Shown here: positions 8,000 through 17,799 of the stretch, in pieces | Position numbering within the stretch: the first letter of the stretch is position 1 | Layout of the letters: every line of letters begins with the position of its first letter | Source of the DNA: Tepidamorphaceae bacterium | GTDB lineage: Bacteria; Pseudomonadota; Alphaproteobacteria; Rhizobiales; Tepidamorphaceae | NCBI GenBank assembly: GCA_028279445.1 | Contig: JANQNT010000008.1 | Coordinates: forward strand, 1 to 64,000 | DNA: 64,000 bases | Direction: 5' to 3' | The notes under the pieces: model-generated | What the model was told of the DNA's origin: nothing | Databases searched by the model: none | Seen by the model: only the letters and a program-made list of their open reading frames with translations | Made by a program: the position numbers and the translations under genes

Positions 8000-8551
8000 A
8001 TGAAGCGATTAATTGACATTGCCGGTGTACTCAGCGGCATTGCTCCGCCAAAGCGGGCGAGCAGGACGGCCACCTACGTCCAGATCAAGGGCCTTAAGGA
8101 GGCCGGGGCGCAATTGCTGCGCGCTGCGGCTCCATCGGCTAAGCGCGCCACCCCAATCGAAGCCTCGGACATTCTGGTCCCGTCGCGCGGGGAAGGCCTC
8201 ATCGCTTTTCAGCCTGCCGAGTCGATGCTTGGCGCGTTCGCCGCATTGGACGTCTACCTGATCAGACCTCACGCTGAACGGGTCGACCCGTCTTACCTGA
8301 TCGTCGCCTTGAACAGCCCTTCTGTTCAGAAGGTACTGAGGATGGCGGCCACAGGTAGTGCCTTGCCTAGAATTCCGAAACAAGCCTTGGAAGAGGCACT
8401 GATACCTGTGCCCTCACTCGACCGGCAGAGACGAATCGCCGCCGTTGGCGTCTTGGCGCGCCGTAGTGAGTACTTGCAGAAACAGCGAGCCGAAGCGGAG
8501 ACGCGTCTTAACGCGGCACTTGTTTCTCGCATTTTGGAATCAGCCGCATAA
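8000..8551 (+). CDS. Single-TRD type I specificity-like protein (half HsdS)
   Basis: At 183 residues this is about half the length of a normal HsdS. It reads as one target-recognition domain (RLIDIAGVLSG at the start, ILVPSRGEG and YLIVALNSPSVQKVLR inside) followed by one conserved helix (LIPVPSLDRQRRIAAVGVLARRS), the layout of a single TRD plus spacer. It starts 12 bases before hsdM begins and is the first gene of the operon. A full two-TRD hsdS lies further down. Half-size S proteins can dimerise to make a complete specificity unit, so this may be a second specificity or a modulator of the first. The Shine-Dalgarno GAGG is very close to the ATG, so the start is somewhat uncertain. Confidence 0.75.
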   Translation: MKRLIDIAGVLSGIAPPKRASRTATYVQIKGLKEAGAQLLRAAAPSAKRATPIEASDILVPSRGEGLIAFQPAESMLGAFAALDVYLIRPHAERVDPSYLIVALNSPSVQKVLRMAATGSALPRIPKQALEEALIPVPSLDRQRRIAAVGVLARRSEYLQKQRAEAETRLNAALVSRILESAA

Positions 8552-8563
8552 CGGGGATCGCAA

Positions 8564-16800: not shown

Positions 16801-17099
16801 AAACCGCGTTCTGGGGCATTTCGCGCCGCGAGCTTCGCAAAGCCGGCGTCGGCGACGAGCACCTGGCAGTGCGGGTTTCTCTGTCGTTGACCGACATTAT
16901 CCAGCGCATGCGGCGTGTCGGGTGGCAACACGACCGCGATGTCCAGAATGAAATGCGGAACGCGATGGACGACTTCTTCTTTGATGAAGTCATGGGCAAG
17001 GACAGCGTCGATCTCGATCCTGCCGTGATGGATGGGATCGTGAACGAAGTGCTGGCGGCGGCTCGGGTGCGGATGCAGGACGATGGCCGTGTCCGCTGA
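13866..17099 (+). CDS. hsdR: Type I restriction endonuclease and translocase subunit R
   Basis: A 1077-residue restriction subunit. The N-terminal nuclease domain carries [10 protein letters not shown] near residue 157 and the EVKR of the PD-(D/E)XK site near residue 171. The SF2 helicase motor follows, with the Walker A motif GSGKS near residue 347, DESH near residue 439 and FTGTP near residue 470. The later helicase motif region ([34 protein letters not shown]) lies near residues 672-705. The C-terminal helical region would bind HsdM/HsdS. All key motifs are intact, so it is predicted active. It starts with an ATGA overlap of the previous stop, preceded by TGGAGG, and its last 17 bases hold the start of the next gene. 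Confidence 0.96.
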   Translation: [1077 protein letters not shown]

Positions 17100-17799
17100 A
17101 GCCTCATTCAAATGGGGTCGTCGGCGTATCGCGTACGAGCTCAGTCGCAGTGATCGCGAACGCCTCAAGATTGTGGTCAAACCATCATGCGAAGTGCACG
17201 TTACGGCACCGGCTCATGCCGATGCGGCAGAGATTCACGAACGGGTCCGGCGAAGAGGTCACTGGATTGTCACCCAGATCGAAGACTTCGAGCAGTACCG
17301 ACCGCGAACGCCGCCACGGCAATTTGTCAGCGGTGAAACACATTTGCTTCGAGGAGTTCAGTACCGCCTTCGCGTCGTGACGGCTCCCGCATCTCGCGTG
17401 TATCTGAAAAATGATCGGATTGTCCTTGAAACGGCGCATTCGGAAAGCCGCGTTCATAAGGCGGCTCTTCTGAATCATCTCTACCGACTTGAGGCACACC
17501 AGGGGTTTCCCGACCGGCTGCGAAAAATGGCGCCAGCGTTCGCAAGCGAAGGCGTCGAGATCCCAAGGCTGATCATCAGACCGATGAGCAAACGCTGGGG
17601 TAGCTACACACCAAAGCGAAACCTGGTTCTCAATCTCGATCTTATCCGAGCGCCGATTCCTTGTATCGAGTATGTCATCGTTCACGAGCTCGCGCATGCC
17701 ATTGAACCCGATCATGGCGCGCGATGGCGTCGTCTCATGGACAAGGCGATGCCGGATTGGCGGGATCGCAAGAGTCGCTTGGAGACAAGCCTATTATGA
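17083..17799 (+). CDS. YgjP/SprT-like zinc metalloprotease
   Basis: This 238-residue protein has the HELAH zinc site near residue 204 with a downstream His in EPDHGARWRRLMDKAMPDW, the pattern of YgjP-type (DUF45) M48-like metallopeptidases. The block KRWGSYTPKRNLVLNLDLI just before the site is also characteristic. There is no signal peptide or membrane segment, so it is cytoplasmic. Its ATG lies 17 bases inside hsdR, implying coupled translation. Genes of this family are known as frequent neighbours of hsdR. A role in controlling or processing restriction subunits is possible but is inference. It closes the operon. Confidence 0.88.
   Translation: MAVSAEASFKWGRRRIAYELSRSDRERLKIVVKPSCEVHVTAPAHADAAEIHERVRRRGHWIVTQIEDFEQYRPRTPPRQFVSGETHLLRGVQYRLRVVTAPASRVYLKNDRIVLETAHSESRVHKAALLNHLYRLEAHQGFPDRLRKMAPAFASEGVEIPRLIIRPMSKRWGSYTPKRNLVLNLDLIRAPIPCIEYVIVHELAHAIEPDHGARWRRLMDKAMPDWRDRKSRLETSLL

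Follow-up and report, generated by a model that had tools for sequence, protein, structure and literature searches.

Type I restriction-modification loci with embedded accessory genes are already known. In Campylobacter jejuni, the type I hsd loci carry variable rlo ORFs between hsdR and hsdS and mlo ORFs between hsdS and hsdM (Miller et al. 2005, as cited in PMC5183652 and PMC2610378). Further examples are PrrC, TgvAB, which works independently of HsdR catalysis (PMC11411939), and DarTG2, the embedded effector of an island of EPEC in which an M48-type protease was already found after hsdR (PMC12255303).

We analysed a locus of this type in a 64,000-nucleotide stretch of DNA from a Tepidamorphaceae bacterium (hereafter, the window). 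It is probably an operon for type I restriction-modification whose core (halfS-hsdM-hsdS-hsdR-YgjP) is fixed and which offers two slots for cargo. In these, a GIY-YIG protein and a TIGR04141 protein would be separate, co-expressed effectors, and the half-S protein would be the putative controller of the operon. Seven ORFs, all on the plus strand, occupy positions 8000-17799 (Table 1). The gene list of the initial annotation, and its description of a tight operon with overlaps of 4-17 nt from hsdM on, were confirmed by the ORFs and by family searches: half-S and hsdM are separated by a gap of 12 nt, and the overlaps that follow are of 11, 4, 4, 4 and 17 nt.

Table 1. Features of the operon and of the DNA preceding it, in window coordinates.
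Feature	Position	Strand	Description
Bipartite palindrome ATGAG-AGCTT-CTCAT	7940..7954		Proposed half-S operator; kept at the same place in L023, L025, L027 and L028
-35-like TTGACC	7965..7970	+	Directly after the palindrome; weak -10; assigned by position only
half-S	8000..8551	+	HsdS-like protein of 183 aa with one TRD; core; proposed regulator
hsdM	8564..10117	+	Type I N6-adenine methyltransferase; core; NPPF and DPACGSG motifs
GIY-YIG / DUF4357 nuclease-like protein	10107..11045	+	TTG start; PADLOC PDC-S14; slot-1 cargo
hsdS	11042..12217	+	Specificity subunit with two TRDs; core; relatives exchange TRDs
TIGR04141/DUF6119 protein, 551 aa	12214..13869	+	Cargo of slot 2; C-terminal domain predicted to be a PD-(D/E)XK-like nuclease
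hsdR	13866..17099	+	Type I motor-endonuclease subunit; core
YgjP/SprT-like zinc metallopeptidase	17083..17799	+	Intact HELAH motif; core

The components of a type I enzyme are all present: an N6-adenine methyltransferase (N6_Mtase, 1.6e-96), a two-TRD HsdS (Methylase_S, 1.2e-13) and an HsdR with an intact HSDR_N nuclease (1.9e-31) and SWI2/SNF2 motor (SWI2_SNF2, 1.2e-75). These would be expected to methylate and restrict in the usual way. This is the only type I locus of the genome, which has no second match to N6_Mtase. The half-S protein matches Methylase_S weakly in Pfam (E 0.0012) and at 3.5e-16 in PADLOC; the GIY-YIG protein matches DUF4357 (8.7e-15), weakly GIY-YIG itself, and the PADLOC candidate PDC-S14 (5.8e-111); the TIGR04141 protein matches DUF6119 (1.5e-150) and TIGR04141 (9.7e-133); and the last gene matches YgjP-like proteins (1.1e-51), with HELAH as its zinc motif.

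Relatives were collected in three ways. A search of 84,980 species genomes with the TIGR04141 profile gave 78 loci, a sample biased to the branch of the window; 385 genomes of the window's class were searched for relatives of TIGR04141 and of the GIY-YIG protein; and an HsdR-based sample provided 19 loci of close relatives with the whole operon visible (L132, L133, L135, L167, L168, L179-L192). In the TIGR04141-profile sample, hsdM and hsdR are both near TIGR04141 in 24 of the 78 loci, and the order halfS-M-(GIY)-S-TIGR04141-R is found in 16, about half of them with GIY-YIG, YgjP being detected in nearly all. This recurrence of gene order is well beyond chance.

The core is common to about 45 related operons, which differ in what lies between its genes. 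Slot 1, between hsdM and hsdS, is empty or holds GIY-YIG, RhuM, Fic, MazEF or Bro-N; slot 2, between hsdS and hsdR, is empty or holds TIGR04141 (two distant subfamilies), Shedu, Kiwa KwaB, a PD-T4-6-like kinase, DUF3800, HAD, Abi_2, Fic, YhcG or RhuM. The 19 HsdR-sampled operons have YgjP after hsdR without exception and half-S before hsdM in 18 cases. Their first slot contains nothing (10 loci), RhuM (6), GIY-YIG (2) or MazEF (1), and their second contains TIGR04141 (5), DUF3800 (4), Shedu with HAD or DUF3800 (3), a kinase with a small protein (2), or, once each, HAD, Kiwa KwaB, Abi, Fic and nothing. GIY-YIG and TIGR04141 occur together in none of the 19. Several of the occupants belong to validated anti-phage systems, and the matches in slot 2 include SduA (2.6e-167), KwaB (6.2e-120) and a PD-T4-6-type kinase (3.7e-40); Pfam and PADLOC also named RhuM (PDC-S05), Abi_2, Fic, YhcG, DUF3800 (PDC-M04A) and Bro-N (PDC-S13); some slot genes received no family name (in L136 and L171, and a 446-aa protein). 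In L167, whose HsdR is the nearest to that of the window outside the window's own cluster (69% identical), the gene order is the same, both slots are empty, and hsdM/hsdS and hsdS/hsdR are directly coupled. The same slot pattern is found in more distant type I operons (L141-L143, L169-L178). This arrangement, with variable genes at the hsdM-hsdS and hsdS-hsdR boundaries of an otherwise conserved operon, is of the rlo/mlo kind. Judging from gene content across these operons, half-S and YgjP belong to the constant part of the operons of this HsdR subfamily, and GIY-YIG and TIGR04141 are exchangeable cargo. The expanded system with four extra genes proposed by the initial annotation thus survives as far as additional defence proteins are concerned, but not as an obligatory unit of seven genes.

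Core genes are sometimes broken in the relatives: hsdR has one TGA in L135 and one TAA in L138 and is split in L037, and hsdM and hsdS are split in L186. YgjP is constant yet diverges faster than hsdR (65-80% identity where hsdR has 95-98%, in L041/L042 and L023/L025), and a role in the turnover of HsdR or of the cargo is possible.

On a quickly made HsdR tree of 48 operons, with a few long branches, the content of slot 2 (16 states) requires at least 29 changes, against 33.6 (sd 1.1) when labels are shuffled, and that of slot 1 (7 states) at least 13, against 21.2 (sd 1.3). For slot 2, the link to the core is therefore nearly but not completely lost, and since both counts are below those of the shuffles, slot content is non-random on the tree and some combinations persist. 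Also against free exchange, one subfamily, TIGR04141a, has remained in a single branch of the core and diverges there in parallel with HsdR (85-98% identity), and a partial functional dependence is thus possible.

Exchange shows most sharply at the level of DNA. Two plasmid operons, from Paracoccus albus (L183) and Mameliella alba (L184), have HsdM, HsdR and YgjP that are 97% identical, and their DNA is about 90-93% identical on either side of slot 2, except for one exchanged TRD of hsdS. Their TIGR04141 proteins are 35% identical (33% by BLASTP), belong to different subfamilies and cannot be aligned as DNA. Conversely, a 3.0-kb cassette formed by a 446-aa gene and TIGR04141 is 94.5% identical between an operon of Stappia (L025) and a locus of Gemmobacter that lacks hsd genes (L030), and the homology stops at the edges of the cassette. 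Whatever the cargo, nearly all junctions combine an overlap of 1-8 nt, mostly ATGA, with a purine-rich ribosome-binding sequence in the final codons; in the window, the ends of hsdS and of the TIGR04141 gene both carry GAGGCCGnnGAATGA. By these comparisons, cargo is inserted at gene boundaries, with the Shine-Dalgarno and ATGA-type coupling re-created. The coupled starts had been taken initially as a sign of functional integration; because coupling is re-created around every type of cargo, they are explained by co-expression and do not require a single machine. A search for the empty chromosomal site by means of its flanks found no relative with alignable flanks.

The cargo genes are also found on their own. 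Besides the genome of the window, TIGR04141 is present in 9 of the 385 genomes of the class, one of which has adjoining hsdR, hsdM and hsdS (L016) and another only an M-like gene (L014). Relatives of the GIY-YIG protein are present in 12 other genomes of the class and, among 9 that were inspected, one lies between hsdM and hsdS (L222). These counts indicate that both families live mostly apart from type I systems, and TIGR04141 without GIY-YIG is common, as is the converse. The initial annotation had named accessory genes occurring mostly without hsdM and hsdR as the observation that would refute an integrated system, and this is what the unbiased, class-wide samples revealed for the two families.

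The neighbours of stand-alone TIGR04141 genes include type II and III methylases, EcoRII, BrxC/D, DruA, GmrSD, AbiEii and AbiJ, and from these neighbours and from its position in the operon TIGR04141 is likely a defence effector carried as cargo. The family (DUF6119) has no PADLOC model, and in the open-access library searched no paper names TIGR04141, and DUF6119 appears in one unrelated plant paper. Across 61 sequences, E404, D407, H417, K419, H429 and Q433 are invariant in the C-terminal domain. In an AlphaFold2 model made from these sequences (pLDDT 89.8; an earlier one from 6 sequences was poor, pLDDT 64), D407 immediately precedes one strand, the following strand carries H417-x-K419, and a long helix comes after it. 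Motif and topology give the layout of a PD-(D/E)XK core in which histidine replaces the usual acidic residue, and the domain is probably a PD-(D/E)XK-like nuclease. Structure searches lend a nuclease weak support: the best viral match is a phage exonuclease (E 1.6e-4, probability 1.00) and a CdiA-CT toxin (4g6u) has probability 0.75, no PDB match being below E 0.001. The family profile has no match among the sequences of solved structures, and its hhalign comparisons with Shedu and YhcG are not significant, the sole Shedu alignment covering the segment after the HxK motif.

A protein of 446-464 aa travels with TIGR04141 both within the operon and as a stand-alone pair (L025:8664-10004; L023, L028, L024, L026, L029, L030); it has no match in Pfam or PADLOC, and the two genes are possibly a two-gene defence module. 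The neighbours of one stand-alone TIGR04141 gene (L048:12071-14475) are an Xre regulator, an ImmA/IrrE-type peptidase and a protein that looks, by eye, like thymidylate synthase. In Chryseomicrobium (L066:8819-17771), the parts are arranged differently, a DUF4357-type GIY-YIG gene lying outside the slots and adjoining TIGR04141 and a set of M, S and R genes. Between sister operons, the GIY-YIG proteins have about 85-100% identity over their N-terminal half and 18-75% over their C-terminal half, from about residue 180. This drop is seen for the protein of the window (10107-11045) and in L039/L040, L041/L042 and L179/L180, pairs in which hsdS differs too; the C-terminal half seems either to be reached by exchange tracts or to be a recognition part.

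The embedding of TIGR04141 between hsd genes, like that of prrC in EcoprrI and of other embedded effectors (PMC2610378, PMC12707154), and its ATGA coupling to hsdR could also mean that the type I complex keeps the protein silent and releases it when inhibited by an anti-restriction protein of the Ocr or Stp type. We consider such a guard possible but doubtful, because TIGR04141 is usually alone, where no hsd silencer is needed, and two of its subfamilies, only 33-35% identical, fit the same core. The mechanism we favour is one in which GIY-YIG and TIGR04141 would be separate, co-expressed second-line effectors, acting when a phage evades or blocks restriction, as embedded PrrC or TgvAB do.

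The other constant partner of the core precedes hsdM. Half-S proteins form their own family (1171 of 1190 pairs are detectable, the start codons of several of these ORFs being uncertain). They share no TRDs with either half of hsdS, the best matches being short, weak and at most 42% identical. Where HsdR is more than 90% identical, the median identity is 38% for hsdS, which exchanges TRD blocks, and 67% for half-S, where changes are evenly spread. Given the within-family matches, the weak matches to hsdS and the divergence without TRD blocks, half-S is neither a fragment of hsdS nor part of the hsdS pool of TRDs.

Palindromes of constant geometry and clade-specific half-sites precede half-S. 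In the clade of the window, ATGAG-N5-CTCAT is found in 5 of 5 loci, and the copy of the window is the single exact match in its 3.4-Mb genome. The second clade has CTGTA-N7/8-TACAG in 15 of 19 loci at one mismatch or fewer, the other four having no such motif; eleven have two copies about 50-63 bp apart, both copies within a locus share the same spacer, and there are 6 matches in 403 kb of control DNA. In the third, AGTTnGA-N7-TCnAACT is found in 6 of 6 loci, five with two copies, one of them over the start codon of half-S, and the rest of 120 kb contains none when up to 2 mismatches are allowed. The palindrome of L167 is TATGAG-N5-CTCTTA. A sigma-70 promoter scan did not report the TTGACC promoter. 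The half-S tree needs only 5 changes in the class of palindrome, and the half-sites follow the clade of half-S and of the operon across different hosts. Since hsdS varies within each clade and the operator does not, hsdS is not the reader, and a dimer of a single-TRD protein that reads an inverted repeat would be the simplest fit. We infer from these patterns that half-S is an HsdS-derived regulator of the operon. In a less certain step of the mechanism, its dimer, with or without HsdM, would bind the palindrome before the operon and control transcription. The fuller proposal, in which this dedicated "control-S" reads a bipartite palindromic operator flanking the promoter, possibly via HsdM-dependent methylation, and sets the expression of exchangeable cargo that includes TIGR04141 as an unrecognised family of anti-phage effectors, is tentative, with somewhat less than an even chance of being right.

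Half-S might instead be a second specificity subunit, whose dimer would methylate a palindromic bipartite sequence with HsdM, or restrict it with HsdR, the promoter copies being incidental or methylation switches. Its single HsdS-like TRD agrees with this, as do the spacers of 7 or 8 nt, expected of a one-TRD dimer, and their equality in both copies of a locus. We nevertheless find this reading rather unlikely: half-S lacks TRD exchange of the hsdS kind, and near absence from the rest of the host genome, as in the window's own, is odd for a restriction target. Seven genomes or plasmids of the second clade each have at most one further site outside the locus, and in three genomes (G763, G764, G765) the 0-1 off-operon sites compare with 9, 22 and 12 for the reversed pattern; avoidance of CTGTA-N7/8-TACAG is possible. 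It is unlikely that a host regulator with no relation to half-S uses the palindromes as its operators, because they are nearly unique in each genome and track the half-S clade across hosts as described above. Finally, functional integration of all seven genes, with accessory proteins that change targeting or cleavage by the type I enzyme, could explain the overlapping genes and the recurrence of the exact set (the window and L039-L042; with one extra gene in L023, L025 and L028), but it is very improbable and as an obligatory machine was rejected, given slot exchange, with unrelated or absent cargo in sister operons whose HsdM and HsdR are about 97% identical, and cargo that combines freely with other partners, mostly without hsd genes.

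What looked like a uniform defence operon is better described as a modular carrier, a single unit of transcription and translation into which different anti-phage modules are plugged; the place of TIGR04141/DUF6119 within it nominates this family as a candidate defence effector. The variable ORFs between hsd genes recall the rlo/mlo loci of Campylobacter, from which, as far as those are described in PMC5183652 and PMC2610378, the window differs in its order M-S-R, in the constant half-S and YgjP, and in other cargo families, including TIGR04141. The type IC locus EcoprrI, with its embedded anticodon nuclease PrrC, shares the embedded effector and the proposed guard logic (PMC2610378, PMC12707154). 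TIGR04141 differs in matching none of the PrrC-type families and in occurring mostly apart from type I genes; the embedded proteins of the window match only DUF6119 and DUF4357/GIY-YIG, and not the ABC-type ATPase with ACNase triad of PrrC/RloC. The mad1-mad8 gene set of MADS (methylation-associated defence system) is absent; resemblance is confined to the methylase and S proteins, whose matches to mad2/mad5 fall far short of the curated cut-off. TgvAB, from the type I operon of VPI-2 in Vibrio cholerae, is a two-gene defence module between hsd genes, but it is a GmrSD-like type IV enzyme, and half-S and YgjP are not described there (PMC11411939). Parallel in layout is the RptR-RMS-DarTG-M48 island of EPEC, also of seven ORFs with a regulator first, M-S-cargo-R, and a metallopeptidase last; its RptR is a 9-kDa helical protein that acts on TAGCTA repeats (PMC12255303). 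In the window, the first gene is the HsdS-like half-S, preceded by bipartite palindromes, and there is no TAGCTA in 7926-8010. C proteins are helix-turn-helix proteins, whereas half-S is a target-recognition-domain protein. The proposal is that type I systems may be regulated by a protein that carries a recognition domain, in place of a controller of the helix-turn-helix type. Type II systems controlled by C proteins, such as Kpn2I (PMC6237814), likewise have an operon-encoded regulator with operators at its own promoter. Relative to all these systems, what appears to be new is the TIGR04141 cargo, a constant and dedicated half-S with matching operators, and the exchange of cargo at the resolution of gene boundaries.
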